From positions 372,001 to 436,000 of the forward strand of contig JABMLG010000003.1 in NCBI GenBank assembly GCA_013204985.1: a stretch of DNA of 64,000 nt, written 5' to 3'. The position numbers and the translations under genes are program-made. This DNA is from Microbacteriaceae bacterium VKM Ac-2855. GTDB taxonomy: Bacteria; Actinomycetota; Actinomycetes; Actinomycetales; Microbacteriaceae. The notes beneath the pieces were generated by a model, which searched no databases, was not told the origin of the DNA, and saw nothing but the letters and a program-made list of their open reading frames with translations. Shown piece after piece: positions 5,982 through 42,331 of this stretch (position 1 is its first letter; each line of letters begins with the position of its first letter).

Positions 5982-6009
5982 CGGATGCTCCTTGACTGCG
6001 GGGCGCGCA

Positions 6010-26074: not shown

Positions 26075-26165
26075 GGAGACGTCGCATAGTTCGGCCTAGT
26101 GCACCACCCTGCTAAGGTGGAGAACCCTTTATTGGGTTCCGTGGGTTCAAATCCCACCGTCTCCG
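26075..26165 (+). tRNA. tRNA-Ser (anticodon GCT)
   Basis: A 91-base class II tRNA: acceptor stem GGAGACG/CGTCTCC with discriminator G, anticodon stem CCACC/GGTGG around loop CTGCTAA (anticodon GCT, reads AGC/AGU), a long variable arm with AACCC/GGGTT, and T-arm GTGGGTTCAAATCCCAC. CCA is not encoded. The long variable arm and anticodon both indicate serine. Confidence 0.97.
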
Positions 26166-26174
26166 CACCTCCAC

Positions 26175-26220
26175 GAAAGGCCCCCCGATCCGCACCACGA
26201 TGCGGATCGGGGGGCCTTTC
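26175..26220 (+). terminator. Strong hairpin after tRNA-Ser
   Basis: A perfect 20-bp stem (26175-26194 with 26201-26220; begins GAAAGGCCCCCC, ends GGGGGGCCTTTC) with a 6-base loop starts 9 bases after the tRNA. It also faces the 3' end of the convergent aminotransferase gene and could stop both transcripts. Confidence 0.9.
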
Positions 26221-26244
26221 GCCGTCCCTGGTCGTCGCCGACGC

Positions 26245-27429: not shown

Positions 27430-27625
27430 GCGGGAGCCTCCAGGCGCGGGCGCATTCATGCCCGCCCCGCAAGGGTATTCGGACCCGCGCCACGTGAACC
27501 GCCGAGGGGGTCGGCCCTCAGCTCGCGGCAGAGGCGCAGACGAATCGTCGGGAGGCCCGGTCTCGGCGGGGGAACTTGTGGCGGAAAACGCCTCCGAGCG
27601 TTGACGAAGCGACACCCATTCGGGG

Positions 27626-27654
27626 GTGACAAACTCGAACAAGTGTTCTATACT
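27626..27654 (+). promoter_or_regulatory. LexA-box promoter without an assigned gene
   Basis: GTGACA (27626-27631) and TATACT (27649-27654) are 17 bases apart. TCGAACAAGTGTTCTA (27635-27650) lies between them and agrees with the actinobacterial SOS box TCGAAC-N4-GTTCGA except in one base of the last pair. The promoter points right, into 27655-27817, where no convincing gene is found. Confidence 0.6.
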
Positions 27655-27817
27655 GGGTGGATCACATCGACCCGAAGGGTAGCTGGATGACCCGCGCCGA
27701 GAGTGGGGCGCGGGCGCCGCCGCGAGCAACCGCGTGAGCTCTACCGACCTCCGAGAGAGGTCAGAACATTGATAACTCCACAGGGGAAGACGGAACGCGC
27801 CGTGGTGACGCGAGCAG
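27655..27817 (+). other. Non-coding stretch with two hairpins downstream of the LexA-box promoter
   Basis: Two stem-loops are visible: CCCGCGCC (27691-27698) with GGCGCGGG (27707-27714), and GACCTC (27746-27751) with GAGGTC (27757-27762) and a CGAGA loop. Only very short open frames occur (for example a 16-codon ATG frame at 27687). The rest of 27430-27625, upstream of the promoter, shows no gene or clear signal. This may be a small RNA or the leader of a deleted SOS gene. Confidence 0.3.
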
Positions 27818-28399
27818 TCAGGCCGCCGACGCCTTACGTCCGCTGGAGAGGAGGAACAGGGTCGTGACGCCCACGATGACGAGCAGGATCGCGGCGACGG
27901 TGACGAAGGAGGCGAGGGCGAGGATGGGCATGATGGCGACCAGCACACCGGCGATAATCGAGGCGATACCGGCGGTCACCGGGAGCCAGCGGAGTTGATC
28001 CGTCCGGGTCGCCCTGCTGGCGATGGAGGCGACGCCGTCGACGATCCACGCTGCGCCGATCACGATGCCGAGAATCGAGAGCGATTGCCACGGGTTCGAG
28101 AGGCAGAGGATACCGCCGACGAGGACGAGGCCGCCGAGGAGTCCGGTGAGCCAGCGGATCGACCCGGGCAGCCGGTCGGCGGTGAACGCCATGATCAGTC
28201 GGAACACGCCGCTCGCGATCAGGTGGATGCCGAACAGGATCGCGACCGTCAGCAGCGTGGCTCCCGGCACGAGGAAGGCGATGACGCCGAGCACGATCGC
28301 GAGGATGGCGACCGCGACGATCCAGCCGCGCTCGACGCCGGAACGGGCGAGCAGTCCGGATGCGGGCGACCCGGGAGTGGGAGTGGGCGAGCTGCTCAT
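27818..28399 (-). CDS. HdeD/DUF308-like membrane protein
   Basis: Protein of 193 residues made of about six closely spaced hydrophobic helices (for example IVAVAILAIVLGVIAFLVPG and SLSILGIVIGAAWIVDGVA), the pattern of the HdeD/DUF308 family with three two-helix repeats. Founding members are linked to acid stress in enteric bacteria; in actinobacteria the role is unknown. GAAGGA lies upstream of the ATG at 28399. Flanking genes are not obviously related. Confidence 0.86.
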   Translation of the reverse strand: MSSSPTPTPGSPASGLLARSGVERGWIVAVAILAIVLGVIAFLVPGATLLTVAILFGIHLIASGVFRLIMAFTADRLPGSIRWLTGLLGGLVLVGGILCLSNPWQSLSILGIVIGAAWIVDGVASIASRATRTDQLRWLPVTAGIASIIAGVLVAIMPILALASFVTVAAILLVIVGVTTLFLLSSGRKASAA

Positions 28400-28509
28400 G
28401 CGTCGAGTCCTTCGAACGGGGCCGCGGTGGCGGGATCCCGCCAGCACCCACTATCGCAGTCTCGGCGGCACTCCGTCGTGCACCCGCGCCGGGAGAGAGC
28501 AGGACAGGT

Positions 28510-31404
28510 TCAGAAGCCTCGGCGAAGTGCTTGGTCGAGCATCGCGACGAAGAACTCGGCACTCTCCTCGGTGAAGCACAGTGGTGGCTTCACCTTGAGA
28601 ACGTTCTGCCTGTCGCCGGTCGGCTGCACGATGACACCGAGTTCGAGCATCCGCTCGCATACGGCGGCGGTCTCCTCTCGGGCGGGCTCGAGGGTCTCGC
28701 GATCTCGGACCAGCTCGATGCCGAGGTACAGTCCGCTTCCGTGCACGGTGCCGATCAGCGGATGCTTCTGCGCGAGGTCGAGAACACGCCGGGTCAGCAG
28801 CCCGCCGACACGGAGGGCGTTCGCCTGCAGGCCCTCGTCCTCCATGATGTCGAGGATCACGGTGCCCAGCCGGCTGCTCAGCGTGCTTCCGCCGGCGGAG
28901 GAGAAGAACGTGCCCTGGACGGCGAGGCTCTCGGCGATCGCGCGGCGGGTGATGACGGCGCCGAGCGGATGTCCGTTGCCCATCGCCTTGGCGACTGTGA
29001 CGACATCCGGTACAACGCCGGGATGCTGCTGGAACCCCCAGAACACGTCGCCCTGTCGCCCGTAGCCGACCTGGACCTCGTCCGAGATGGTGACGCCGCC
29101 GCCGGCGCGTACGGCTGCGTAGACGGCGGCGAGATAGCCCGCCGGCACCTCGATTCCGCCGGCGTTGCCGTGGCGTGGCTCGGCGATGAACGTGCCGATC
29201 GGGGTGCCGGCTGCGGCGAGCTCGGTCAGCTGCGCGACGGTGTCGGCGGCGTACGCGGCGCCCGCATCCTCGCCGCGATGGGCGCCCCGATACGCGTTGG
29301 GCGCGGGGGTGACGTGCACCCAGCCGGGTCGGGTGGACTCGGCCTGCGGATTGTCGGAGACCGAGGTGGACACGGCATCGGTGGCGAGGGACCAGCCGTG
29401 ATACGACTCACTGACGCACATCACGTCGTCGCGGCCGGTGAAAGCGGAGGTGAGCCGGAGAGCGAGGTCGACGGCTTCGGTGCCGCTGTTCACCAGCAGC
29501 ACGGTGTCGAAGGACCCGGGCAGGGTCCGCAGCAGCCGCTCGCTGAGCTCGACGACGGCATCGTAGTGGAACCGCGAGTTGGTGTTGAGCATCCGCCACT
29601 GGTCGTCGGCCGCATCCGCGAGGCGCGGGTGACCGTGCCCGAGCACGGTCACGTTGTTCACCATGTCGAGGTAGTGCCGGCCGTCGGTGTCGATGAGGTG
29701 CTCGGCCCAGCCGCGCTCGATCTGCGGCGGGGAGGCGTAGTAGTGGCTCTGCAGCGGATCGTAGGCGCGGTCGCGGCGGGCGAGCTCCGCCGAAGAATCA
29801 GGGCGGGGCGCAGCCGTGCTGATGAGGCCGAGCAGCGGCGCAGGGTCGAGACAGCGCGTCCGCCACGCCGAGAACTCGCCGGGTCGCACGAACAACGGTG
29901 GAGGTTCGGCGCCCGACACCGTCAGCCAGATGGTGACCGTGTCCGTTGCACGGCCGATCACGGCGCCGGAGGCGACGGCGCCGAGGGGCTCGGGCGACAG
30001 GCCGGCGATCACCACACGATGCTCCGCGCCGTCCAGAATCACCAGGTCGTCGCGGCGGTGTGCGGTTGCGGCGAACGGGGCGTACAGCGGATGACCGCCC
30101 TCGGCGAAATGCACCTCGACGCCGAGAGCGGTGTTGATGGGCTCGCCCGACCGGTGGACGGCGGAGCGGGTGAGTCGGGACTCACCGAAGCGAGTGACTG
30201 CGCATCCGTTCGCCGCAGCCGCCTTGGCGAGCAGGCGGCGCTCGAGGGCGATCGGCTCGCGCAACCAGGCGCCATCCCGCAGGACCCTGCTGCTGCAGCC
30301 GAGATCGAGCTGCGCCGGTGCGCTGTCGACGACGAGCATCCGGGTCGAACCGTGCAGTGGCGTCGGTGCGACGACGGTCCGGCCGAGCCGAGCGCGGATG
30401 GCCGCGGTGGCGACGTCGATGTCGACGGCGGCCGGGACGGCGAAGATCGTCCACTCCCGTTCGCGCGCGACGTCGGCGTAGCGGTTGCCGGGATCCGCCG
30501 CGATCTGCTGCTCGCCGCTCACCACGAGGACGGCGCCCCGCAGCACGATGAGCGGCCAGAGCGCCGCGATCTCGGTATCGCTGAGGGGAACGAGCGAGTC
30601 GAAGGCGGCGATGGTCTCCAGTACCGCGAACGGCTGCTCGGGCTCGTGGTGGAAGATCGCGGTGCAGGCGATCGCGAGTTCGGCAACGCGCCAGCCGAGG
30701 CTCGCGTCGCCGAAGTCGATGATGCCGTCGATGATCGGCCGGCCGATCGCGTCGGCGTGACAGACCACGTTGTCGTCGGTGAGGTCGCCGTGAAGGGGCT
30801 GCGTCGGCAGCCGGTCCCGGAGCGGTGACAAGCGGGCGACGGCGCGACCGGCTGCGGCGCGGAGGAACTCGCGGCGTTCGGGCGGAGCGTGCTGCAGCAG
30901 GTCCGAGACGACGGTCTCGGCGCGGCGGAGGTCCCATTGCAGAGTGCGATCGAGCCCCTCATGCCGCAGACCGGCCAGCGCCGCCGAGACGCGGCCGGCG
31001 ACGGTGCCCAACTGTCGAGCGCTCGCCACGGAGAGATGGTCGAAATCGATCAGGGGGGTGCCGTCGACGAATTCGAGCAATCGCACCAGGTGGGTGACCC
31101 CGTCGAGGTCGACGGCCGCGATCTCTTCTCCTCGGAAGGAGAGGCGGGGGCGGGGAGTCGCCAGGCCGCCGCCGTGCAGCGAGGTCATCACCGCGTTCTG
31201 CGCCTCGACCTCGGCTCGGGTGAAGGCAGGATTGCTGATTTTGAGGAGCCACCGCGTGCCGTCCGCCGTCTCCAGCCGGAAGTTGCGATCCTGCTGGCTG
31301 CCGAGTTCGTGCAACCGTCCTCGCACGCCGAACAGCTCGGCGGCGATCGCGGCGGCGCGCGCCGACGACACGTCCGGGCGGGGCAGCTCAGCGGTGATGC
31401 TCAT
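28510..31404 (-). CDS. Fusion: APH-type kinase, degenerate M23-like domain, class III aminotransferase
   Basis: Protein of 964 residues with three parts. Residues about 10-310 form an APH-type phosphotransferase with catalytic loop LHGDLTDDN (H205) and metal site IDFGD. Residues about 400-500 resemble the M23 (lysostaphin-type) fold, INTALGVEVHFAEGGHPLYAPF then VVIAGLSP, but the metal-binding His expected in HLGID and GHLS are Thr-Ala and Ala here, so peptidase activity is unlikely. Residues about 540-964 are a class III PLP aminotransferase with NSGTEAVDLA, SDEVQVGYGRQG and the lysine in VAKAMGNGHPLG (K806). Related fusions and ethanolamine-phosphate phospho-lyases suggest an amino-alcohol or amino-sugar route: phosphorylation followed by PLP chemistry. 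The start at 31404 has GAGAGG upstream. Confidence 0.88.
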   Translation of the reverse strand: MSITAELPRPDVSSARAAAIAAELFGVRGRLHELGSQQDRNFRLETADGTRWLLKISNPAFTRAEVEAQNAVMTSLHGGGLATPRPRLSFRGEEIAAVDLDGVTHLVRLLEFVDGTPLIDFDHLSVASARQLGTVAGRVSAALAGLRHEGLDRTLQWDLRRAETVVSDLLQHAPPERREFLRAAAGRAVARLSPLRDRLPTQPLHGDLTDDNVVCHADAIGRPIIDGIIDFGDASLGWRVAELAIACTAIFHHEPEQPFAVLETIAAFDSLVPLSDTEIAALWPLIVLRGAVLVVSGEQQIAADPGNRYADVAREREWTIFAVPAAVDIDVATAAIRARLGRTVVAPTPLHGSTRMLVVDSAPAQLDLGCSSRVLRDGAWLREPIALERRLLAKAAAANGCAVTRFGESRLTRSAVHRSGEPINTALGVEVHFAEGGHPLYAPFAATAHRRDDLVILDGAEHRVVIAGLSPEPLGAVASGAVIGRATDTVTIWLTVSGAEPPPLFVRPGEFSAWRTRCLDPAPLLGLISTAAPRPDSSAELARRDRAYDPLQSHYYASPPQIERGWAEHLIDTDGRHYLDMVNNVTVLGHGHPRLADAADDQWRMLNTNSRFHYDAVVELSERLLRTLPGSFDTVLLVNSGTEAVDLALRLTSAFTGRDDVMCVSESYHGWSLATDAVSTSVSDNPQAESTRPGWVHVTPAPNAYRGAHRGEDAGAAYAADTVAQLTELAAAGTPIGTFIAEPRHGNAGGIEVPAGYLAAVYAAVRAGGGVTISDEVQVGYGRQGDVFWGFQQHPGVVPDVVTVAKAMGNGHPLGAVITRRAIAESLAVQGTFFSSAGGSTLSSRLGTVILDIMEDEGLQANALRVGGLLTRRVLDLAQKHPLIGTVHGSGLYLGIELVRDRETLEPAREETAAVCERMLELGVIVQPTGDRQNVLKVKPPLCFTEESAEFFVAMLDQALRRGF

Positions 31405-31516
31405 CCGGGCCTCTCTGGCAGGAAGGTTGCAGTCTGACGAGGAACGACTCAGCGCCACCCTACAAGCGCGGCGGGCGGTCATCCGGGCCATCGCGGAGGG
31501 GCACCTCGAGATCGGC

Positions 31517-32176
31517 CTAACGCCGCAGCGCGCGACGCGCGAGCGTGTTGCCGAGCCACTGCACCAGCTGCACGATCACGATGATCACCAGCACCGCGGC
31601 CCACGTCACGACCGGTTCGAACTGGCGGTAACCGTACTGGATGGCGAAGGTGCCCAGGCCGCCGCCACCGATGGTGCCCGCGACGGCCGACATGTCGACC
31701 AGCGCGACCACGATGAACGTGTAGCCGAGGATCAGCGGGCCGAGCGCCTCGGGCACGATGACCGACCAGATGATGCGGAAGCGGCTGGCTCCGACCGAGC
31801 GGGCGGCCTCGATCACGCCGGGCTGAACGGTCAGCAGATTCTGCTCGACGATGCGGCTCACACCGAACACCGCCGCGAGCGCGAGGGTGAAGGTGATCGC
31901 GTTGTTGCCGATGCCGAGGCCGGTGACCGCGCGGGCCAGGGGCTGAGCGGCGGCGATGAAGATGATGAAGGGGATGGGCCGGAAGATGTTCACCAGCAGG
32001 TTGAGCACCCCGAAGACCAGGCGGTTCGGGTAGAGGCTGCCGGCACGGGTGACATAGAGACCGAGGCCGACCAGCAGGCCGCCGAGGCCACCCGCCACGA
32101 GGCTGATGCCGACGATGTAGAGGGTCTCACCGGTCGCCTGGCTGAGCTTGGGCAGCAGGGGAATCAGTTCGTCCAC
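31517..32176 (-). CDS. metI: Methionine ABC transporter permease MetI
   Basis: Inner-membrane permease of 219 residues with five or so hydrophobic spans and the MetI-type loop ARSVGASRFRIIWSVIVPEALGPLI, which docks to the ATPase, preceded by PGVIEAARSVGAS. The N-terminal TGETLYIVGISLVAGGLGGL span is typical. The start overlaps the end of metN by 13 bases. It is the last gene of a metQ-metN-metI unit read leftward. Substrate by family: methionine, possibly also D-methionine or N-formyl forms. Confidence 0.93.
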   Translation of the reverse strand: MDELIPLLPKLSQATGETLYIVGISLVAGGLGGLLVGLGLYVTRAGSLYPNRLVFGVLNLLVNIFRPIPFIIFIAAAQPLARAVTGLGIGNNAITFTLALAAVFGVSRIVEQNLLTVQPGVIEAARSVGASRFRIIWSVIVPEALGPLILGYTFIVVALVDMSAVAGTIGGGGLGTFAIQYGYRQFEPVVTWAAVLVIIVIVQLVQWLGNTLARRALRR

Positions 32177-33204
32177 GTCGGGACCTCCGTGACGGTGAGG
32201 CGCTCGGCGAGGCTCGCGAGCAGCGGGTCGATCGCGTCATCCGCTCCGGCGAGAGCGAGGGTGAGGTGTCCGAAGACACGGCCGCGGATATCGGTGATGC
32301 CGCCGTAGACCAGTTCGAAGCCGACACCGGCAGCGGAGATCCGCGCGAAGATCTCGCCTTGCGAGGGGGTCGACTCGGTGAACGACAGCGTCACGAGGCG
32401 TCCGTCGTGGCGGCTGCGCAGCACGGCCGCCTCCTCGGCGGACGGGAGCGAGCGCACCACGGTCGAGACGAAACGTCGGGTGACCGGTTGCTGCGGATCC
32501 GAGAACACGTCGAACACGTCGCCGCGTTCCACGATGCGGCCGTTCTCCATCACGGCGACCTTGGTCGCGATCGACTGGATCACGTCCATCTCGTGCGTGA
32601 TGACGATCACGGTGACCCCGAACTCCTCGTTCACTCGCCGGAGCAGGGCGAGCACCTCGTGCGTGGTCTCAGGATCGAGGGCGCTGGTCGCTTCGTCGGC
32701 GAGCAGCAGCCGGGGCGAGGCTGCGAGGGCGCGGGCGATTCCGACCCGCTGCTTCTGGCCGCCGGAGAGCTGTTCCGGGTAGGCGTCGCCCTTGTCCTCG
32801 AGGCCGACAAAGCGCAGCAGCTCGTCGACTCGTGCCCGGATCTCGCCGCGCGGGCTGCCGGCGACGTGCAACGGGTAGGCGATGTTGCCGCGCACCGATT
32901 TCGAGGCGAACAGATTGAACTGCTGGAAGATCATGCCGATGCCGAGACGCACTCGGCGCAACTCCGACTCGCGGAGGCCGACGATCTCGCGGCCGTCGAC
33001 GAGGATGCTGCCGGACGTGGCGGTCTCGAGCGCATTCACCAGCCGGACGAGCGTGCTCTTGCCCGCCCCGGAATAGCCGATGATGCCGTAGATGTCGCCG
33101 GCTTCGATGTCGAGGCTGACGGCGTCGATCGCGACGGCCGCAACTCCACCGCGCTTGGGCGGCGGATACGTCTTGGTCACGTCGCGGAAGGAGACGAGGG
33201 GCAT
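32164..33204 (-). CDS. metN: Methionine ABC transporter ATPase MetN
   Basis: ATPase of 346 residues: Walker A GYSGAGKST, signature LSGGQKQR, Walker B LLLADEATSALD, His switch VITHEM, and a C-terminal NIL domain (about residues 265-340) that binds methionine and feeds back on transport in the E. coli protein. Length and layout match MetN. It lies 116 bases downstream of metQ and overlaps metI. Confidence 0.95.
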   Translation of the reverse strand: MPLVSFRDVTKTYPPPKRGGVAAVAIDAVSLDIEAGDIYGIIGYSGAGKSTLVRLVNALETATSGSILVDGREIVGLRESELRRVRLGIGMIFQQFNLFASKSVRGNIAYPLHVAGSPRGEIRARVDELLRFVGLEDKGDAYPEQLSGGQKQRVGIARALAASPRLLLADEATSALDPETTHEVLALLRRVNEEFGVTVIVITHEMDVIQSIATKVAVMENGRIVERGDVFDVFSDPQQPVTRRFVSTVVRSLPSAEEAAVLRSRHDGRLVTLSFTESTPSQGEIFARISAAGVGFELVYGGITDIRGRVFGHLTLALAGADDAIDPLLASLAERLTVTEVPTWTN

Positions 33205-33320
33205 TGCGGGCCTTTCGGAGGCGGGAGGGTGTCCCAGAGAACGGAGAGGGGCGTGGAAACGCGGATGCGGCCGGCCGTCGAGAATGTCGACGACCGGCCG
33301 CGGTCAGGCGGCGAGCTGGA

Positions 33321-34208
33321 TCAGCCCTTCGCCTCGATGTCCTTCTCGACCGTCTCGAGGGACGACTGCAGATCGGCGACCGGGGTCTTCACGAAGACCG
33401 CTGTGCCACCCGACTTCTCCTGGACGCCGTCGAGGACGGCCTGGGTGTCCTGGTAGATCGAGACGAGCTTCGCGTAGGTCTCGTCGTCCTTGTCCTCGGC
33501 GCGCGCGGCGAAGATGTTCACGTACGGCAGGGCGTTGGGGTCGGATGGGTCGTCCTGCGCGATCGCGTCGGAGGCGGTGAGTCCGGCGTTCTCGAGGAAG
33601 TCGTTGTTGATGATCGCGGCGGCGACGTCGGGCAGCGAGGTCGCGGTGAGCGACGCATCCAGCGAGGTGACCTTCACCTTCGATGCCGCGGTGTCGACGT
33701 CGTCGACGGTCGAGAAGATCGAGCCTCCACCCTTCAGCTCGATCAGGCCCGCCGACTGCAGCACGAGCAGGCCCCGGGCCTGGTTGCTCTCGTCGTTGGG
33801 CACGGCGACGGTCTCGCCCTCTGCGATGTCGGAGACATCGTCGTATTTGGTCGAGTAGAGCCCGAGCGGGTAGATCGCGGTGGCGCCGACCGGTACGAGG
33901 TCGGCGTCGCTGGCCGCGTTGTACTGCGCGAGGTAGACGATGTGCTGGAACTGGTTGAGGTCGATCTCGCCCTCGGTCAGCGCCGGGTTGGGCTGCGTGT
34001 ACTCGGTGAAGTCGACGATCTCGACGTCGATGCCGGCCTCTTTCGCGGCTTCGGTGTACGTCGCCCAGTACGGGTCGCTGGCGCCGACGACGCCGATCTT
34101 CACGCTCTCGTCGGCGGCGGCGTCGCTGCCGGACGAGGCGCAACCGGAGAGCAGCGCGACGACGGAGGCGCCGGCTGCGATGGTGAGAAGGGTGCTGCGG
34201 AGTGACAT
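33321..34208 (-). CDS. metQ: MetQ/NlpA-type methionine-binding lipoprotein
   Basis: Lipoprotein of 295 residues; lipobox ALLSGC follows a short hydrophobic signal. The NlpA/MetQ fold is shown by VKIGVVGASDPYWATYTEAAKEAGIDVEIVDF, the EGEIDLNQFQH segment and PNDESNQARGLLVLQSAGLI. GAAAGGAT lies upstream of the ATG at 34208. First gene of the metQNI operon; a structured leader at 34229-34311 precedes it. The substrate is methionine by family, though some relatives carry other small amino acids or dipeptides. Confidence 0.93.
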   Translation of the reverse strand: MSLRSTLLTIAAGASVVALLSGCASSGSDAAADESVKIGVVGASDPYWATYTEAAKEAGIDVEIVDFTEYTQPNPALTEGEIDLNQFQHIVYLAQYNAASDADLVPVGATAIYPLGLYSTKYDDVSDIAEGETVAVPNDESNQARGLLVLQSAGLIELKGGGSIFSTVDDVDTAASKVKVTSLDASLTATSLPDVAAAIINNDFLENAGLTASDAIAQDDPSDPNALPYVNIFAARAEDKDDETYAKLVSIYQDTQAVLDGVQEKSGGTAVFVKTPVADLQSSLETVEKDIEAKG

Positions 34209-34228
34209 GGTGGGGTGGATCCTTTCGT

Positions 34229-34311
34229 GGTCCGGGCCCGCGGGCGTCGTTGTTCGCCGCCAGGTGCATCCGGTCGCTGTCGTTCCGGAACGCACCGCCT
34301 CGTCGCGGACC
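34229..34311 (-). promoter_or_regulatory. Structured leader upstream of metQ, candidate regulatory RNA
   Basis: Read on the minus strand, GGTCCG (34306-34311) pairs with CGGACC (34229-34234) and encloses two hairpins: GGTGCGTTCCGG (34285-34296) with CCGGATGCACC (34263-34273), eleven pairs with one bulge and one G-U, and a short GGCG/CGCC stem (34255-34258 with 34243-34246). This makes a three-way junction ending about 20 bases before the metQ start. I do not recognise it as SAM-I or SAM-IV. No transcription start is proven. Confidence 0.45.
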
Positions 34312-34434
34312 CTGAGAAGCACCGTAGGGAACGATCACGGAGAACGCGAAACATGTTCGTAACACGACGGAACATCCGCTGCAGCCTGCCTGGCGCTCCC
34401 GGATATCGTGGTGGCGACAGCGGGAGGAGGACGC

Positions 34435-35610
34435 ATGCCGGACACCTCCGGATTCTCGCCCGAGCCGCTGCAGCGCATCGTCGAGCGGTTGGCGAACACG
34501 CTGCACCGCTCGGTCGCCGTCGACGACGCGGAGTTGCGGCTGCTCGCGAACAGCGCCCACTTCGGTGACGAGGATCCGGCACGCATCCACTCGCTGGTCG
34601 GCCGCTCGCAGACCCCGGAGCGGATGGAATGGTCACGGGTGCACGGCGTGCTCCGCGCGACGGCGCCGATCAACACGCCGGGTGAACCCGCGCTGGGCAT
34701 CCGGCCGCGATACGTCGTTCCGGTCCGGCTCGACCGCGAGCTGCTGGCGATCATCTGGATCATCGACGACGGCACACTGACGCCGGATGAGATCGCGGCG
34801 ATCGATCGTGCGGCGGACGACGTCCGCGTGGTCGTGCTGCAGCGCGCCCACCGCTATGAGGAGGACGTGCGCCGACTGCAGCAGCGGCTCGCGGGTCTGG
34901 TGTCGGGCGATACGGCGGAGAGGGCCGCGGCGGCGTCCGAGCTGAGCTCGTTCCGCGACTGCTCGGCGTTCCAGGTGGTCCTGCTGCGGACGGAGACCGA
35001 GACGGCTCCGCCGCTGCGGGTGATCGAGCGAGCGATCGCGCCGCGGAGCTCGGCACTGGCCGTCGCGCGGATCGGCGGCGAGATGATGCTGCTGATCGGC
35101 TACGCGTCCGTTCCCGCATCCGAACAGCAGGACGCCATGGTGGATGCCCTCCTGCGCGCGCTCGATGCGGAGACGGCGGGGGTCGTGGTCGGGGTGGGTG
35201 GCGTGGTCGATGACCTCGAGCTGGCCTACGCATCCCGCGACCAGGCCGATCGGGCGCTGCGGATCGCTCGCGCCCGCGATGAACGGACGGTTCGTTGGGA
35301 GCAGTCGACCCTCGACGGTCTCCTCGCGGCCGCACTGCCCGAGCACCTGCCGGCGCACCTGCTGCCGCCGGCGCTGGCCGACGCGATCGAGAGCCAGTCG
35401 GAGGAGAACCTGCTCGCCGTGCGCGGTTATCTCGCCAACGCCGGCAACGTGGTGAAGACCAGCACCGAACTGCACCTGCACCGCACCACCGTCTACTACC
35501 GGCTGAGTCGCTTCACCGAAGGCACAGGCCTCGACCTGGAGGACGGCGACACCCGCCTTCTGCTGCACCTCTGGTTCGCACTGCGCCCCTACACGATTCT
35601 GGTGCCCTGA
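34435..35610 (+). CDS. PucR/CdaR-type transcriptional regulator
   Basis: Regulator of 391 residues with a GAF-like ligand region at the N-terminus, a GGDEF-related middle part (FQVVLLRTETETAP to VVGVGGVVDDLELAYASRDQADRALRIA) and the C-terminal PucR helix-turn-helix NAGNVVKTSTELHLHRTTVYYRLSRF. GGGAGGAGG lies upstream of the ATG at 34435. Divergent from metQNI and upstream of FAD oxidases; relatives control purine, sugar-acid or amine catabolism, so the downstream oxidase gene is a plausible target. No operator was identified with confidence. Confidence 0.9.
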   Translation: MPDTSGFSPEPLQRIVERLANTLHRSVAVDDAELRLLANSAHFGDEDPARIHSLVGRSQTPERMEWSRVHGVLRATAPINTPGEPALGIRPRYVVPVRLDRELLAIIWIIDDGTLTPDEIAAIDRAADDVRVVVLQRAHRYEEDVRRLQQRLAGLVSGDTAERAAAASELSSFRDCSAFQVVLLRTETETAPPLRVIERAIAPRSSALAVARIGGEMMLLIGYASVPASEQQDAMVDALLRALDAETAGVVVGVGGVVDDLELAYASRDQADRALRIARARDERTVRWEQSTLDGLLAAALPEHLPAHLLPPALADAIESQSEENLLAVRGYLANAGNVVKTSTELHLHRTTVYYRLSRFTEGTGLDLEDGDTRLLLHLWFALRPYTILVP

Positions 35611-35722
35611 CCCCTCCCGCGGGAGGGCGGAGGGTGGCGCTCCGACAGGCGTCGATCCGCGCGCGAGCAGGTTTCGACAGCGGTGCCTGCGCCCGCCGGC
35701 GCGGGCGTGCCTACCATCAAGG

Positions 35723-36967
35723 ATGGCTACGAATATCGGACCGGTCTGCGTCATCGGCGCGGGCATCCTCGGCGCTTCGACGGCGCTGCATTTGATGCTC
35801 GGCGGAGCGAGTGAGCTCACGCTGATCGACGCGGGCTCGCCGCTCAGCGGCACCACCGCTGCGGGCGCCGGATTCGTGGCGCGCTTCGGCGCCGACCACC
35901 ACCGCCGCATCGGCGAAGGCGCGATCCCGCTGGAGGAGTACGGCCTCGACTTCTACCGCGGCCTGCACGAGGACGGCGTCGACATCGAGTTCGCGCACAA
36001 CGGCAACATCGCCATCGCGCGCTCGGCCGGTGTGCTCGACACGCTGGAGCAGGGCATCGCCCGGCATCCGCTCGCCAGCCCCGGCACGCGGGTGCTCGAC
36101 GCCGACGGCGTCGCCGAGCGGATGCACGGCGCGATCGATCCAGCCGCCATCGTCGGCGGCGTGCTGATGCCGGAGGCGATCCAGCTGACGACGGCGAAGG
36201 CGCTGACCGAGATCCTCGACAGGCTCGAGGCCGGTGGCGTCAGGGTCCTCTGGAACACGACCGCAACAGGCGTGAAGCTGCACAACGGCGCGGTAGCCGG
36301 GGTGCACACGCCGGCGGGCACTGTCGACGCGACGACGATCGTCTTCGCGGCCGGCGCGTGGACGTCCGAACTGTTGCGCGGCGTCGGTCGACCGCTGCCG
36401 CTGGTGCCGACCGTCGCCACGCGTTTCGTGTCGGAGCCCGCCGGGCTGCCCGCGACGATGCCGACCGTGCAGAGCCTCGAGCTCGGCCTGTGGCTGCGGG
36501 AGCTCCGGGGTGCTTTCTCGTGGGGCGGCGGCTTCGCCTACCGACGAGTGTCGGCGCTCGCTGCCGAGGAGGGGCTCTCCTTCGGTTTCGAGCGCCCGGT
36601 GTCACCCACGTTGATCACGCAGCAGCACGCGGCTCAGGCCCGGATCGCGGAGGTCTTCCCGGCGCTCGCCGGTCTGCAGACGGCGGAGATCGTGCAGGGG
36701 ATCCCCGTCTACTCCGTCGACGGTGGGCTCTACGCGGGCGCGGTTCCCGGCATCGACGGACTGTGGGCGCTCGCCGGCGACAACGAATCGGGCGTGACGC
36801 ACGGGCCGGGTATGGGCCGCCTCGTCGCCGAGCTCATCCTCGGGGTGCAGCCGTACGCCGATCCGGCGCCGTTCAGGCTCGACCGGGTCGACCCGGCCCA
36901 CTACCCCGACGAGTCGGCGATCGTGGCGGCGATGGCCGGCGATCGTGTGGCGGCGGCGCTGAACTGA
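35723..36967 (+). CDS. FAD-dependent amine/amino-acid oxidoreductase (DAO family)
   Basis: Oxidoreductase of 414 residues. The N-terminal Rossmann motif VIGAGILGASTALHLMLGG binds FAD; SGTTAAGAGFVARFG and the closing LWALAGDNESGVTHGPGMG are the usual DAO-family segments. Relatives oxidise sarcosine, glycine, dimethylglycine or D-amino acids and often pass electrons to oxygen. It lies 112 bases downstream of the PucR-type regulator on the same strand. Convergent with a second FAD oxidase, the two 3' ends being separated by a 14-bp tandem repeat. Confidence 0.9.
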   Translation: MATNIGPVCVIGAGILGASTALHLMLGGASELTLIDAGSPLSGTTAAGAGFVARFGADHHRRIGEGAIPLEEYGLDFYRGLHEDGVDIEFAHNGNIAIARSAGVLDTLEQGIARHPLASPGTRVLDADGVAERMHGAIDPAAIVGGVLMPEAIQLTTAKALTEILDRLEAGGVRVLWNTTATGVKLHNGAVAGVHTPAGTVDATTIVFAAGAWTSELLRGVGRPLPLVPTVATRFVSEPAGLPATMPTVQSLELGLWLRELRGAFSWGGGFAYRRVSALAAEEGLSFGFERPVSPTLITQQHAAQARIAEVFPALAGLQTAEIVQGIPVYSVDGGLYAGAVPGIDGLWALAGDNESGVTHGPGMGRLVAELILGVQPYADPAPFRLDRVDPAHYPDESAIVAAMAGDRVAAALN

Positions 36968-36978
36968 GCCGACTCCGC

Positions 36979-37087
36979 GACCGAGGCTCAGCGACCGAGG
37001 CTCTGCGACCGAGCCTCAGCGACCGAGGCTCAGCGACCGAGGCTCAGCGACCGAGGCTCAGCGACCGAGCCTCAGCGACCGAGCCGG
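36979..37087. repeat. 14-bp tandem repeat between convergent oxidase genes
   Basis: Seven full units of GACCGAGGCTCAGC or one-base variants (36979-37076) and a partial eighth (37077-37087). Units 3 and 7 have GAGCCTC in place of GAGGCTC, which makes them complementary to neighbouring units and allows hairpins. The stop codon of the minus-strand gene lies in unit 7, so the array was probably seeded by that gene end. Not a CRISPR: there are no spacers. Confidence 0.95.
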
Positions 37088-38181
37088 AACCGCGCGGGCG
37101 CGGTCAGACCCTCGGCGAGGTCGACCAGGATCCGACCGATCGCCGGCGTGAACTTGAAGCCGTGGCCCGAGAATCCCGCGCCGACGACGACGGGCCCTTC
37201 GCGATCGAGCACGAAATCCTCATCCGCCGTCATCGTGTAGGTGCAGCTGATCACGTCGAACACATCCGGATCCGCGCCGGGCAGCCACTCGCCGACGTAC
37301 CGGCGCAGCGCGGCCAGTTGCCCCGGATCCGCGTGGTGCGGGCGATGGTCGGGATCGATCGCGGCCCCCACCCCGTGCCAGCCCGCCTTGAGGCCCTCAC
37401 CGGGCGTGAGCATTCCGTAGACCGCGCTGAGCCAGTACGCGTCCTCGGGCGCGTCGGGGTCGGGCGAATGGTTGAAGCTGGGCCAGGCGATGTCGGTGAC
37501 TCGGGGGCGGAAATGCGCGGGATGCTCCTCCGTCACCACCAGCCGCGGCAGCGGCATCCGTGAGCCGAGAAGGGCCGTGGTCCAGGCACCCGCAGTGACG
37601 ATCACCCGGCGTGCACGGTATTCGGCGTCATCCGTGCCGACGACGACCTCGTCGGGACCCACGACATCGATCGAGCGGACCGGGCTCTCGTATCGGAAGA
37701 GCGCCGAACGGCGCTCCGCTGCGGCGCGCAAGGCGATCAGGGCTTCGTCGGCTCGAACGCGACCGCCACCCGGTACATGCAGCACCTCGCTTCGGAAGCG
37801 CAGACCCGGCCAGCGCGCGGCGGCCTCACCGGGCGACAGAAACACGCTGTCGATTCCGACACGCTCGTGCTCCGCCCGCACACGCAGCAGCGGCGCGAGA
37901 TGACCGTGGTTCACCAGGCCCACGCTCTCGAGAAGGGTCTCGCCGTGCTCCTCGGCCAGCGTGTTCCACATCCGTCGCGCTTCGACCACGAGGTCGACGT
38001 AGTCGGCGCGGTCGTAGGCCTCATTGAAGTTGCGGGTCGCGCCGTGCGAGGCGCCGTGGTGGTGACCGAAGTCGAACTGTTCGAGCAGCACGACGTCGAG
38101 TCCGCGCTGCGCGGCCTGCCACGCCGCCGCCGAGCCCATCGCTCCGCCGCCGACGATCACGATGTCGAGCTTCTCGCCCAC
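37072..38181 (-). CDS. FAD-dependent monomeric sarcosine oxidase/N-methyltryptophan oxidase-like protein
   Basis: Oxidase of 369 residues. FAD motif IVIVGGGAMGSAAAWQAAQRG, the flavin-contact region HHHGASHGATRNFNEAY (where sarcosine oxidases have SSHGxxR), and the closing VVVGAGFSGHGFKFTPAIG typical of MSOX/SolA proteins including the Gly-Phe-Ser-Gly-His-Gly-Phe-Lys stretch. The Cys that carries covalent FAD in these enzymes is plausible in VISCTYTMTADEDF. The GTG at 38179-38181 was chosen because GGAGGGA is five bases upstream; no ATG fits. The substrate is an N-methylated amino acid by family. Confidence 0.9.
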   Translation of the reverse strand: MGEKLDIVIVGGGAMGSAAAWQAAQRGLDVVLLEQFDFGHHHGASHGATRNFNEAYDRADYVDLVVEARRMWNTLAEEHGETLLESVGLVNHGHLAPLLRVRAEHERVGIDSVFLSPGEAAARWPGLRFRSEVLHVPGGGRVRADEALIALRAAAERRSALFRYESPVRSIDVVGPDEVVVGTDDAEYRARRVIVTAGAWTTALLGSRMPLPRLVVTEEHPAHFRPRVTDIAWPSFNHSPDPDAPEDAYWLSAVYGMLTPGEGLKAGWHGVGAAIDPDHRPHHADPGQLAALRRYVGEWLPGADPDVFDVISCTYTMTADEDFVLDREGPVVVGAGFSGHGFKFTPAIGRILVDLAEGLTAPARFRLGR

Positions 38182-38449
38182 GGTGCTCCCTCCGATCGAT
38201 GCCTCATCCACCCTCCCCGCCGGCGCATCGCTCGGCAATCGACAGGTGGCGAGGCCGGGTGGTCGACGTCTCGTCAGGAGTCGAAGCCGACACAGCAGCA
38301 GAGTTCGACAAACGTCGCATCCGCCGGGCGCAGGGTGCGACGACTATGCAACGCCGCGCGGCGTGCTGGTCGGCACCATGGAGGGACAGCCCTGCTCGTC
38401 CGTCACCCTCGTCCCGCTTCCCTCTGTGCGGGACCCAAGGAGCCACTCC

Positions 38450-40066
38450 ATGCGCCCTCGCCTCCTGCCCGCGCTCGCCGTCCTCACGGCGACCGGCCTC
38501 GCCCTCTCCGCCTGCTCGGCCTCGACGGAGGGCGGGTCGACCGCCGACGGGATCATCGTCGGCACGACCGACTCCGTGACCGCGCTCGACCCGGCGGGTT
38601 CGTGGGATCGCGGCTCATCGACGCTGCAGAACCAGGTGTTCTCGTGGCTGCTCACCTCGGAGCCCGGCTCCACCGATCCGGTGCCGGACCTCGCCGCGTC
38701 CGCCGAGTTCACCTCGCCCACCGAGTACACGGTGGTGCTGCGCGAGGGGGTGACCTTCGCGAACGGCAACGCGCTGACCGCCTCCGACGTGAAGTTCAGC
38801 TTCGATCGCCAACTCGCGATCGCCGACGAGAACGGGCCCAGCTCGCTGCTCTCCGACCTCGTCTCGACGACGACCTCGGGCGACGACACGGTGGTCTTCA
38901 CCCTCGCCAGCACCGACAACAAGCTGTGGCCGCAGCTGTTGACCAGCCCGGCCGCGGCGATCGTGGATGAGGACGTCTTCTCGGCGGAGAAGCTCACCAG
39001 CGACGACGACATCGTCGCGGGCGAGGCGTTCGAGGGTCAGTACTCGATCTCGAGCTACACCAAGAACACGTTGGTCCAGCTGACGAAGAACGCCGACTAC
39101 GACGGCCTCCTCGGTGCGGCGAAGAACGACGCGGTCGTGGTGAAGTATTACGCCGACGAGAGCAACCTCAAGCTCGATCTGCAGGAGGGCGAGATCCAGG
39201 TCGCCTACCGCACGCTCAACGCGACGGACACCGACGACCTGCGCGGTGACGACAGCGTCGAGGTGCACACCGGACCCGGTGCCGAGATGCGCTTCTTCGC
39301 CTTCAACCTCGAGACGATGCCCTTCGGCTCCGCCACCGCGGAGGCCGATGAGGCGAAGGCGCTCGCCGTACGCACCGCGGTCGCCGATCTGATCGACCGC
39401 GAGGAGATCGCGTCGCAGGTCTATAAAGACACCTACTCCCCGCTCTACACGATCGTGCCCGAGGGCGTGACCGGATCGACGCCGGCGTACGAGGCGCTCT
39501 ACGGCGACACGCAAGGTGGCGCCAGCCTCGACGCCGCGACCGCAGCGCTCGCCGCGGCCGGCGTCAGCACCCCGATCGAGCTGAAGCTGCAGTACAACAC
39601 CGACCACTACGGTGCGAGCACCTCGGACGAGTACGCGTTGATCAAGAACCAGCTCGAGGAGAGCGGCCTGTTCTCGGTCGACCTGCAGTCGACCGAGTGG
39701 ACCCAGTACGTGCAGCAGTTCTCGACCACGTACCCCGCCTACCAGCTCGGCTGGTTCGCCGACTACCCGGATGCGGACAACTACCTGCACCTGCTCGAGG
39801 GAACCGATGAGTCGCCTTCCGTGCTCGGCGCCGCGGCCAACGATCCGGCTTTCAACGCCCTCGTGCTGCAGGAGCGCGCTCTCGACCCGGGCGCCGAACG
39901 CGATGCCGTGCTCGCGCAGGCTCAGCAGCTCGCCGCCGAGCGCCTGGTCACCGTCCCGCTACTGCAGGGCACCGAGACGGCGATCGCGAGCACCAGTGTG
40001 CAGGGCGTCGACGACACGCTCGACGGCTCCGGCCGGTTCCGGTTCGGACTGCTCAGCATCGGCTGA
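38450..40066 (+). CDS. ABC transporter substrate-binding lipoprotein, SBP family 5 (orphan)
   Basis: Lipoprotein of 538 residues; start at 38450 with AAGGAG upstream, signal with lipobox LALSAC. SBP family 5 segments are visible: VVLREGVTFANGNALTASDVKFSFDR, FEGQYSISSYTKN and YPDADNYLHLL near the end. No permease or ATPase follows; transcription ends at the hairpin at 40098-40133 and then an islet begins. Divergent from the sarcosine-oxidase-like gene, so both might serve amine or peptide use. It could work with the transporter encoded at 3113-6999 or with one outside the window. Confidence 0.92.
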   Translation: MRPRLLPALAVLTATGLALSACSASTEGGSTADGIIVGTTDSVTALDPAGSWDRGSSTLQNQVFSWLLTSEPGSTDPVPDLAASAEFTSPTEYTVVLREGVTFANGNALTASDVKFSFDRQLAIADENGPSSLLSDLVSTTTSGDDTVVFTLASTDNKLWPQLLTSPAAAIVDEDVFSAEKLTSDDDIVAGEAFEGQYSISSYTKNTLVQLTKNADYDGLLGAAKNDAVVVKYYADESNLKLDLQEGEIQVAYRTLNATDTDDLRGDDSVEVHTGPGAEMRFFAFNLETMPFGSATAEADEAKALAVRTAVADLIDREEIASQVYKDTYSPLYTIVPEGVTGSTPAYEALYGDTQGGASLDAATAALAAAGVSTPIELKLQYNTDHYGASTSDEYALIKNQLEESGLFSVDLQSTEWTQYVQQFSTTYPAYQLGWFADYPDADNYLHLLEGTDESPSVLGAAANDPAFNALVLQERALDPGAERDAVLAQAQQLAAERLVTVPLLQGTETAIASTSVQGVDDTLDGSGRFRFGLLSIG

Positions 40067-40096
40067 GTCGGACCCCCTCGGGCGAGGACGAATCGA

Positions 40097-40151
40097 GCGG
40101 ATGCGGAGAGAACGGGCGGTCCTCTCCGCATCCGTTTCGTTTCTCCTCCGG
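40097..40151. repeat. 55-bp direct repeat, left copy, containing a terminator
   Basis: Stem CGGATGCGGAGAG/CTCTCCGCATCCG with an 11-base loop, followed by TTTCGTTTCTCC. It ends the transcript of the binding-protein gene. The same 55 bases with three changes recur at 41448-41502. The rest of 40067-40397 outside this copy holds no gene I can support. Confidence 0.9.
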
Positions 40152-40397
40152 CGAGGGGGCGCGGTTTGTGCTCCAAGACTTGGTGCCGTCGACCGGCGGG
40201 ACGATCCCGAGCGGCAATGTAGATCGTCGCGGTACAGCTACACCTGCTGGGAACCCAGACGTGCCCCGAACCAGGCGTTTGCCGACAACTCTGAGTGAGC
40301 GGACGCAGGTCGAGCCTCTACTCGATGTCGGTGCTGAACGTCATAATGGGCACAGCGTCGAAGTCGGCGCGGGGCAGGACAACTGAAGGGATCCACA

Positions 40398-40571
40398 TTG
40401 GGTAAACACGAGACTGAGCGCCCCAACGGCCCGCTAACGGTTCCGGCGAGTGCTGACCCTGATTGGCGCGAGAAGGTCGACGCTGCACGGCTGGCCCGCG
40501 AGACCGCCATTAGGGTGCGACAAGGCCGACCTACGAGTTTTCGTCGAGGTGTCGGACACGACGCCCGATGA
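40398..40571 (+). CDS. Small hydrophilic protein with TTG start, coupled to the protease gene
   Basis: A 57-residue frame starting TTG at 40398 (GAAGGGAT seven bases upstream) and ending TGA at 40569-40571, overlapping the ATG of the next gene (ATGA). The protein begins MGKHETERPNGPL and ends with a basic SFRRGVGHDAR; it has no Cys and no membrane segment, and has a short helix-like DWREKVDAARLARETAIRV. I recognise no family. The coupling, the ribosome binding site and shared base composition argue that it is real and acts with the protease, possibly as a partner or substrate. The rest of 40152-40397 upstream shows a CATAAT (40342-40347) that may be a -10 box. Confidence 0.6.
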   Translation: MGKHETERPNGPLTVPASADPDWREKVDAARLARETAIRVRQGRPTSFRRGVGHDAR

Positions 40572-41428
40572 GTGGTTCGCTCCTTGGCGGGAGCAGCAAA
40601 ACCTATCTCTTTGCCGCGCAGCACGCTGACCGATATGAGCGGCAAACAATCATTCGCGCTTACGAAGAATTAACCGGAGCTCGCCTGATCGTGCTGATTG
40701 ATCAGATCTTTAGTCCGGGCGTCACGCTTCTGGAAGAACTTCTCATGGACGCCTCCCGCGACCAGCCTCTTCACCTATTGTTGTCGAGCCCTGGTGGCGA
40801 TGGTGAAGTGGCAGTGCGCCTGGTTCGCTCCATGCAGGCGCGCTGCTCGCAACTGACGATAATCGTTCCGGATATGGCGAAGTCGGCGGGTACCATCATG
40901 TGCCTCGGTGCAAATCAAATTCTTATGGCCCCGGCTTCTGATCTCGGCCCAGTGGACCCGCAATTCCAACACAACGGCCGCCTGGTAGGGGCGAAGGAGA
41001 TTCAAAATGCGGTAGCGAGGGCGGAAGAGCGAGTGGCGGCCGAACCAGCGTCATTCCCCCTATATTCTGGGCTTTTGGCGGATGTGACAATGGTCATGGT
41101 TGAGCAAGCGCGTTCGGCTATGGCACGGAGCTACTCTTTAATCGACGAGGCCATCGAATGCTCTGGCCTGGACTCTTCGGCTCGAGCCGCCCTCGTCGAA
41201 AAAGTGAAAGGTCCCTTAATTGACGAGGCGCACTACCATGGCGCCACGGTCGGGCCAGAAGCGGCTCGTAATCTCGGCCTGCCGGTCACTATTGTTGATC
41301 CAACCTCGGATCAATGGCAGCATATTTGGGCGTTGTGGACACGTTACTTTCAAATGGGGGCGTGGCCGGCTGGGGGCGTTGCGGTTTACGAGGGGCGTGT
41401 TGCGTCGCAAATTCGGTACCCGAGCTAG
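40568..41428 (+). CDS. Clp-fold serine protease of the SDH proteinase/SppA-like group
   Basis: Soluble protein of 286 residues with the ClpP/crotonase fold: LHLLLSSPGGDGEVAVRLVR supplies the oxyanion Gly-Gly (residues 76-77), and the catalytic Ser is in VPDMAKSAGTIMCLGANQI (S106), followed by LGPVDPQF. This pattern is that of serine dehydrogenase proteinase (SDH_sah) proteins. No signal peptide or membrane span is seen, so it should be cytoplasmic. Base composition and codon use differ from the flanking genes, and the gene sits in an islet bounded by direct repeats. Its start overlaps the small gene upstream. The substrate is unknown; a role in defence or stress is speculation. Confidence 0.85.
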   Translation: MSGSLLGGSSKTYLFAAQHADRYERQTIIRAYEELTGARLIVLIDQIFSPGVTLLEELLMDASRDQPLHLLLSSPGGDGEVAVRLVRSMQARCSQLTIIVPDMAKSAGTIMCLGANQILMAPASDLGPVDPQFQHNGRLVGAKEIQNAVARAEERVAAEPASFPLYSGLLADVTMVMVEQARSAMARSYSLIDEAIECSGLDSSARAALVEKVKGPLIDEAHYHGATVGPEAARNLGLPVTIVDPTSDQWQHIWALWTRYFQMGAWPAGGVAVYEGRVASQIRYPS

Positions 41429-41447
41429 GAAGCGCGGTTTTCGCCCT

Positions 41448-41502
41448 GCGGATGCGGAGAGAACCGGCGGTTCTTTCCGCATCCGTTTCGTTTCTCCTCC
41501 GG
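41448..41502. repeat. 55-bp direct repeat, right copy, containing a terminator
   Basis: Matches 40097-40151 in 52 of 55 positions. The three changes keep the hairpin: one is in the loop, one at its edge and one gives a G-U pair. It lies 19 bases after the protease stop and faces the 3' end of the nei-type gene. Confidence 0.9.
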
Positions 41503-41545
41503 TGAGGAACGAGGGGCGAGGGGGCGAGGCGCGCCGGCTGCCCGG

Positions 41546-42331
41546 TCAACTCTGGCAGCGCGGGCAGAAGTAGGTGATCCGCAGTTGCAACTCGTCGTCG
41601 CCCAGCTCACTCCGTCGGATGGGGGTGCGGCAGCGCCGACACGGCTTACCCTCGCGCCCGTAGACCCACAGCTGCTGGCCGGGCCGGAGGTTGCCGGTCG
41701 TGGTGCGTTCGGTGCGGTCCTTATTGGCGACGATCATCCGCTGGGCGAGCGTGATCGTGCGGGCGAGGTCACCCGATTCGCCGACGGGCCGGGTCGGCAG
41801 GATGCCGCGTAGGAAGCACACCTCGGCGCGGTACACGTTTCCGAGGCCGGCGAGGTTGCGCTGATCGAGCAGGGCCAGCCCGATCGGCCGTTCCGGGCTC
41901 GCGGCGAGACGTCGCAGCGCTTCCTCCGCGTTCCAGTCGGGACCGAGCAGGTCGGGGCCGAGGTAGCCGACGGCGTCGTCCTCTTCGCTGCCGCGCAGGA
42001 TCTCGAGCGTGCCGAGTTCGAAGCCGACGGCCTGCCAGCGCTCCGTCTCGAGGATGATGCGGGCCTGATACGCCGGGCGTCGCCATTTCACCGGCGTGGT
42101 GCGGTCGTAGAGATGCCAGCTGCCCTCCATCTTGAGATGCGAGTGGATGAGGTAGTCGCCCACGCGCATCAGCAGGTGCTTGCCGCGCGGCACCACGGAG
42201 TCGATCCGCTCGCCGGTCAGGTCGACCGTCGCGTATTTCGGCACCCGCACGTCGCACCGCGTCAGCATCTCTCCGTCGAGCGCTGCGGCCAGGTTGTGCG
42301 CTGCTCGGTAGACGGTGTCTCCCTCGGGCAC
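41546..42331 (-). CDS. nei2: Fpg/Nei family DNA glycosylase (Nei2-type)
   Basis: Base-excision-repair glycosylase/AP lyase of 261 residues. The N-terminal MPEGDTVYRAA places the catalytic Pro2 and Glu3; the middle has the helix-two-turn-helix region (DQRNLAGLGNVYRAEVCFLRG), and the C-terminus has a zinc finger CRRCRTPI to FCPRCQ. It starts 2 bases after the lhr stop, in the same operon; lhr-nei2 pairing is common in actinobacteria. Specificity for oxidised pyrimidines is inferred from the Nei2 group. Confidence 0.93.
   Translation of the reverse strand: MPEGDTVYRAAHNLAAALDGEMLTRCDVRVPKYATVDLTGERIDSVVPRGKHLLMRVGDYLIHSHLKMEGSWHLYDRTTPVKWRRPAYQARIILETERWQAVGFELGTLEILRGSEEDDAVGYLGPDLLGPDWNAEEALRRLAASPERPIGLALLDQRNLAGLGNVYRAEVCFLRGILPTRPVGESGDLARTITLAQRMIVANKDRTERTTTGNLRPGQQLWVYGREGKPCRRCRTPIRRSELGDDELQLRITYFCPRCQS

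Follow-up and report, generated by a model that had tools for sequence, protein, structure and literature searches.

A short, low-GC segment flanked by two near-identical repeats lies in the genome of Microbacteriaceae bacterium VKM Ac-2855, and it raises three connected questions: whether the segment was acquired, how it came to be bordered by repeats, and what its two genes do. The window considered throughout is the whole 64,000-nt stretch of DNA that was analysed. A sequence-only reading of this window had described an islet between two copies of a terminator, carrying a Clp-fold serine protease gene and a coupled small gene. The islet itself spans 40157-41447, between two direct repeats spaced 1351 nt apart, and its genes are a 57-aa ORF followed by a 286-aa ORF that overlaps it by ATGA. 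The features on which the following analysis depends are given here in window coordinates.

26075..26166, + strand: tRNA-Ser(gct), which bounds the variable region discussed below at the end away from the islet
38162..40066, + strand: SBP_bac_5 solute-binding protein gene, left neighbour (PF00496, E 2e-62); open frame as listed, its true start probably lying further downstream
40073..40159, no strand assigned: palindrome that contains the left repeat, a full-length member of a palindrome family (inverted repeat; 89.5 bits against covariance model R1 at 40076-40156)
40157..40397, + strand: islet leader, from the left palindrome to the small gene (GC 0.627)
40398..40571, + strand: small partner gene, 57 aa, TTG start (from the ORF listing and homologues at 4 further loci)
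40568..41428, + strand: Clp-fold, SDH-type serine protease gene, 286 aa, ATG start (PF01972)
41448..41507, no strand assigned: right repeat, a family member shortened at the end facing the islet (37.4 bits against R1, outside the training set)
41546..42331, - strand: Fpg/Nei-type DNA glycosylase gene (nei2), right neighbour, convergent with the protease gene (genus orthologues)

The base composition of the islet sets it apart from its surroundings. Its GC content is 0.596 (40157-41447) as compared to 0.692 for the whole window, and the interval 40501-41500 falls to 0.582 against ~0.69-0.70 in the surrounding sequence. GC3 values for the small gene and the protease gene are 0.596 and 0.605, respectively, while those of four neighbour genes are 0.929, 0.881, 0.888, and 0.843. 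The earlier description of a low-GC islet is therefore borne out both overall (59.6% vs 69.2%) and at GC3 (0.60 vs 0.84-0.93). A reading of the ORF translations of 40157-41447 recognised no recombinase or integrase, as had been claimed, and no phage gene was recognised within the islet; family scans covered its two genes. The leader DNA returned no matches in phage and plasmid collections, and a promoter scan returned no sites.

The direct repeats (40097-40156 and 41448-41507) are 60 nt long and identical at 56 of 60 positions (93%); over the first 55 positions the previously claimed identity of 52/55 was reproduced exactly. The left copy occupies the interior of a longer, ~84-nt palindrome at 40073-40159. 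When this palindrome is used as a query, only positions 25-84 of 88 match at the right copy, which is 5'-truncated and lacks the first 24 nt of the palindrome. Both repeats are predicted to form strong RNA hairpins on the + strand (-34.9 and -33.2 kcal/mol, z about -5), and 0 of 200 shuffles folded as well for either one. Of the two copies, a terminator-type scan returned only the right one, which lies between the protease gene and the convergent nei2. The assertion that each copy is a working hairpin is thus upheld for the predicted folds of both, but the terminator-type scan gives the right copy only.

Comparisons within and between genomes leave room for another origin of these repeats than the terminator duplicated on entry that had been suggested. 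A search with the left palindrome, in which at most 40 candidates were scored per genome, found at least ten further places of >=70 nt in the genome of the window (71-82% identity, with similar borders), and none of >=70 nt among the matches listed for 14 congeners. The covariance model R1 (alignment A7) was trained on ten copies from the genome of the window, the left islet copy being one of these, and so favours that genome. With at most 150 candidates scored per genome, R1 gave at least 75 matches there (E <= 0.01; five are the opposite strand of another match), at least three in one congener (G008), and none among the matches listed in the other 13. Within the window, E values below 0.01 were reached by the two islet copies only. 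The same palindrome family also occurs in the genome of the window (G000) as arrays of ~80-nt palindromic units at C21:330766-331431, C22:335205-336227, C12:618754-620179, C25:44395-45509, and C3:482-1477 (in part the loci L246-L249), with periods of 128 and 148 nt in two of them and about 69 nt in C12.

Judged by sequence similarity, the flanking repeats are members of an ~81-nt palindromic family that is special to the genome of the window, expanded there and nearly absent from congeners. A nearby pair of repeats needs no duplication by insertion, because the family has at least 75 matches in this genome and none among the matches listed in 13 of 14 congeners. The entry-duplication idea is therefore weakened and not required, and after the family searches a duplicated terminator was no longer retained as the only source of the repeats. 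The islet may instead have entered by recombination at palindromic repeats. Another reading takes the repeats as attL and attR of an integrative element, since lost, that targeted a terminator. It draws on the two near-identical copies that exactly border the islet and on the abrupt start of the right copy at the inner hairpin, but the palindrome has its many other matches in this genome, a large part of them in arrays, and an integrase was not recognised in the islet; we consider this origin quite improbable. The flanking repeats are comparable to palindromic repeats of the REP/BIME type, given their length of about 80 nt, many copies, and occasional arrays; they differ in being a sequence family private to one genome and, weakly, one congener. 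Such repeats can pass for insertion scars even though they belong to a genome-specific palindromic family.

The chromosomal setting was then compared across the genus. A nei2 orthologue is present in 15 of 15 genus genomes, the one containing the window included. Extended flanks cover 13 congeners (all but G012), and in 12 of these the distance from tRNA-Ser(gct) to nei2 is 0.6-7.7 kb; in G008 no tRNA-Ser appears in the roughly 11.5 kb of flank that precede the contig end. The same distance in the window is 15.4 kb, with the islet at its end. Taken together, these spans put the islet inside a variable region, at the end that adjoins nei2. In all 14 congeners the 0.9-1.5 kb next to nei2 lack a binding-protein match, nor was such a gene found in the longer nei2 flanks of 13 of them. 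No empty site with a single repeat was found, these 14 genomes having no junction of the binding-protein gene and nei2 at which to look for one.

The 13.9 kb from tRNA-Ser to the islet (26182-40066) reads as amino-acid metabolism and transport, with aminotransferases, MetNIQ-like ABC genes, two oxidoreductases, and the solute-binding protein; the corresponding position in 12 congeners holds no DNA that matches it. A tandem 14-nt repeat array (GCGACCGAGGCTCA-like) is found at 36945-37111, between two convergent oxidoreductase genes. The stretch 37132-40053, which holds the binding-protein gene and its neighbour, has a 73% DNA match in G014 at another place, and no islet-type repeat is present in the 0.5 kb that follows it there.

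The two islet genes have no match in any of the 14 congeners, and their wider distribution was followed in three overlapping genome sets. Among 60 relatives including the genome of the window, the pair type is present in that genome and G046 only; the third match, in G017, was excluded as weak (23%, 4e-5). Among 396 genomes sampled from the order there are 15 with a match, five of which are of the pair type (the genome of the window, G046, G484, G632, and G567); G484 is the Demequina sp. B12 genome itself and thus not an independent locus, and the ten weaker matching genomes were left out of the pair counts. The pair type was confined to the genome of the window among 394 genomes of the class, where 17 other matches (22-37% over part of the protein) were left out. 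A search with the small protein in 394 genomes gave two matches, its own genome and a weak one in G113 (9.6e-4), and the Demequina locus was the single hit of a pattern-based scan of GTDB species genomes, a method limited to close relatives.

Adjacent pairs were found in Demequina, G046, G632, and a phage-like contig, and the neighbours of each were listed, as the earlier reading had proposed. Coordinates of two of these loci are as follows.

Demequina sp. B12 (L011): 5825-5995, small gene; 5992-6867, protease gene
G046 (L073): 1227-1394, small gene, a homologue upstream of the protease gene

With the window, five distinct loci keep the small gene and the protease gene together and in the same order, the protease being intact in four. 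The genes overlap by 4 nt at four loci (ATGA in the window, Demequina, and G632; TTGA in G046) and are separated by a 2-nt gap in the phage-like contig, so that this is a two-gene module whose genes point the same way, overlap or abut, and recur together at five loci. Set against five other loci, the islet region shows DNA similarity within the genes only. Two more distant proteases (L110 and L111, 26% identity) were not accepted as pair members, as no small partner of the pair type was seen upstream of them. The absence of the genes from all 14 congeners, their foreign composition, and the same pair elsewhere in mobile settings bear out the proposal of a portable two-gene accessory cassette, and the islet is very probably an acquired, conserved gene pair. 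The protease fold and family are known, and no description of the conserved partner or of the stand-alone mobile pair was found among the papers listed in the literature searches, in which coverage of subscription papers is limited.

The protease half of the pair is readily placed. It matches PF01972 (SDH_protease) at 48.7 bits (cut-off 31.3, E 7e-13), which together with the ATGA overlap confirms the claimed Clp-fold protease with a coupled small gene, and it matches PF00574 (ClpP) marginally, at 21.4 bits against a gathering cut-off of 20.2. An AlphaFold2 model built with 33 sequences has a pLDDT of 90.8, and its best PDB matches in Foldseek are ClpP subunits (E about 1e-6). Ser106, Asp130, and His224, in that order, are invariant in 33 aligned rows and also in an eight-row alignment that includes G632 and four plasmid relatives; from family and fold, we infer that these residues form the catalytic set. 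The triad order of ClpP is Ser-His-Asp. The window protease departs from it in having Asp, and not His, at the invariant second position, plus a late invariant His. The Clp fold, the Ser-Asp-His order, and the score above the Pfam cut-off are shared with the SDH_protease family (PF01972/NF047768), whereas the NCBIfam equivalog NF047768 (Clp_like_SDH) is matched at 68.1 bits, far below its cut-off of 250, and the window protease has an N-terminal motif of its own and a small upstream partner. The protease is probably cytoplasmic, since no transmembrane helix is apparent by eye. Between the window and Demequina, pN is 0.19 and pS 0.81, with synonymous sites saturated; these values indicate purifying selection, with strong constraint on amino-acid change.

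Homologues of the small partner lie directly 5' of the protease gene in 4 further loci, those of the nearest protease relatives, and this recurrence indicates, at the level of sequence, that the small gene is real. A five-row alignment shows invariant P16, W23, A30, R34, R41, P45, and F48. One helix is predicted at residues 23-42, followed by a conserved tail with P45 and S47/F48; the AlphaFold2 model, from three rows, is of low confidence (mean pLDDT 66.9). The window protein has no matches in Pfam, NCBIfam, PHROGs, or PADLOC, and the Demequina and phage-contig proteins have none above the Pfam cut-off and none in PHROGs. From the window to Demequina the small gene has a pN of 0.49 and a pS of 0.62, indicating weak selection by this measure.

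The loci outside the window associate the pair with mobile DNA. The Demequina pair lies just outside an att-like repeat adjoining a tyrosine integrase gene (PF00589) and a gene with a weak, sub-threshold FtsK-like match; further along lie another integrase-like ORF, identified by reading, and the other copy of the repeat. The first 6640 nt of the Demequina locus L221 probably represent tandem integrative elements beside the pair. Within L221, the integrase gene and the integrase-like ORF are each followed by an ~89-nt repeat (618-706 and 6551-6640, 86.5% identical), and the stretch at the second copy reads as a tRNA 3' end, a whole tRNA not being found there. On its other side, the pair is flanked by a type II restriction-modification pair, an EcoRI-type methylase and a GmrSD/HNH gene (PADLOC MTase_II, REase_II). 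In G632 (L222) the pair is beside tRNA-Leu, with an AbiEii-like nucleotidyltransferase about 3.4 kb away. The G046 pair adjoins a fragment whose resolvase-type HTH matches stay under the cut-off, and the protease of this pair is interrupted by a frame break as well as an in-frame stop. G567 retains only a C-terminal protease half, in the same frame, after two stops and behind what reads as the C-terminus of a tyrosine recombinase (integrase). Broken or halved genes thus account for 2 of the 6 copies found (G046 and G567).

The phage-like contig is represented by three IMG/VR records (L107-L109), of which L107 and L108 were not counted apart, their pair proteins being the same as those of L109. 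Here an AAA/primase-like gene lies on one side of the pair and the TerL and portal genes on the other; a C5 methylase is encoded in the vicinity. A single-sequence protease query found no matches in viral contigs, while an alignment query gave 115 pattern hits, of which 100 were confirmed and 80 kept, and distant relatives are therefore frequent there. These observations bear on the possibility that the pair works for its carrier, a phage or mobile element: the protease would remove a host or rival-phage protein, in lysogeny control, takeover, or counter-defence, and the copies in chromosomes would be leftovers or domesticated genes. The position between replication and packaging genes, the remnants in G046 and G567, and the frequency of viral relatives all speak for such a role; on the other side, the window copy is intact, and the Demequina pair keeps company with restriction-modification and integrative-element genes and not with recognisable phage structural genes. 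We regard a phage-serving role as somewhat unlikely. A further reading, in which the protease is the head-maturation protease of a lost prophage, is very improbable. Weak PHROG matches to head maturation proteases, and a distant relative in L111 that comes after terminase-like ORFs (by reading), are in its favour, but the best PHROG match is to a family of unknown function (1e-34), the pair precedes TerL in the phage-like contig and does not follow the portal gene, and no phage gene is present in the islet so far as recognised.

Our preferred reading, held tentatively, is that the pair is a toxin-antitoxin-like system for defence or element maintenance, a protease restrained by its small partner. 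The ~57-aa partner would be translated just ahead of, and overlapping, the protease, and this protein, a helix with a conserved tail, would bind the protease as an inhibitor or adaptor in the manner of an antitoxin. Infection or a rival element could remove or titrate the small protein, and the freed protease might cleave phage or host targets, such that phage growth is stopped or the carrying element is kept. In favour of this model are the conserved order and coupling of the genes, their rarity, their mobile settings, the purifying selection on the protease, and the defence-type neighbours at 2 of 5 pair loci (Demequina and G632). Against it are the lack of a PADLOC match, the weak selection on the small ORF, its TTG start, the low-confidence small-protein model, and the two broken or halved copies among six. 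Carriage by a phage is just as well explained by a phage-serving role. PADLOC assigned no family to either window protein or to the Demequina, phage-contig, and one plasmid protease, and no defence gene was recognised by reading beside the pair in the window, the phage-like contig, or G046, although the phage-like contig has its C5 methylase. The stress or defence role guessed at earlier thus retains circumstantial support from the restriction-modification neighbours in Demequina and the AbiEii-like gene in G632, but finds none in PADLOC for the window genes themselves.

An ordinary accessory protease for quality control or stress, working with a small adaptor and mobile merely as accessory genes often are, is another possible reading of the pair. 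The fold and family match housekeeping Clp/SDH proteases, and one more distant plasmid relative adjoins trxC, rhomboid, and HdeD-like genes. The very patchy distribution and the repeated mobile contexts argue the other way, and we judge an ordinary quality-control role unlikely.

The nearest relatives of the protease outside the pair lie in ubiquitin-like operons. The best six plasmid matches have 30-34% identity over 86-87% of the protein, and in the four of these that were read (H1, H3, H5, and H6), multiubiquitin and ThiF-type E1 genes are found upstream of the protease gene. E2 and DUF6527 genes are also annotated in three of the four, the H5 annotation being without them, and Pfam identifies Multi_ubiq, Prok-E2_E, ThiF, and DUF6527 in H1. 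The protease start overlaps the preceding annotated gene in three of the four plasmid loci; the annotation of the fourth lacks that gene. These multiubiquitin-E2-E1-DUF6527 operons closed by a protease occur on alphaproteobacterial plasmids (Methylocystis, Rhizobium, and Phenylobacterium). More distant plasmid and phage relatives (H8, H15, H18, H22, H26, and H27) have no ubiquitin-like neighbours in their annotation. A multiubiquitin-E2-ThiF operon is also seen on the Microbacterium plasmid pSGAir0570_2 (H21; L045 3192-6665), where the ThiF and protease regions, annotated as several short genes, are perhaps broken. At L042, L043, L044, and L071, a Fic-family gene with a small upstream gene lies beside the multiubiquitin operon, divergently in three.

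An N-terminal F.A..A.RY.RQ motif and two C-terminal tryptophans are common to the pair and plasmid proteases and are not found in three phage-type rows. In the tree, the pair clade (window, Demequina, and phage-like contig) is fully supported, and its grouping with the plasmid proteases and L110/L111 has support of only 82/76, under a midpoint root and with long branches. The pair could be a ubiquitin-free branch of the multiubiquitin-E2-E1 operon protease, in which the small helix-and-tail protein replaced the conjugation machinery to leave a minimal two-gene immune or element-addiction system carried by phages and integrative elements; we consider this derivation possible and rather doubtful. 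The conserved partner is unrecognised by any of the four family collections, and the closest kin of the protease outside the pair belong to bacterial ubiquitin-like operons; if the pair does work alone, it would be a very small, testable system for the control of such proteases and for the question of their action against phages.

The pair can be compared with several known systems. The proteases of multiubiquitin operons resemble the window protease over nearly their full length, in the N-terminal motif, and in the two C-terminal tryptophans. The loci differ in that genes for Ubl, E2, E1, and DUF6527 are missing from the window, where an unrelated 57-aa partner lies upstream instead. Bub (bacterial ubiquitination-like) operons contain a serine protease family. 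The nearest other relatives of the protease are housed in Ubl-E2-E1 operons, which may or may not be Bub operons; the window locus has no conjugation machinery. Bub pathways are described as putative immune pathways, with protection against phage not yet shown (PMC13373217). With regard to type II toxin-antitoxin systems, the pair contains no known toxin or antitoxin family, and it resembles them in placing the small gene first, in the 4-nt overlap, in its mobility, and in its patchy distribution.
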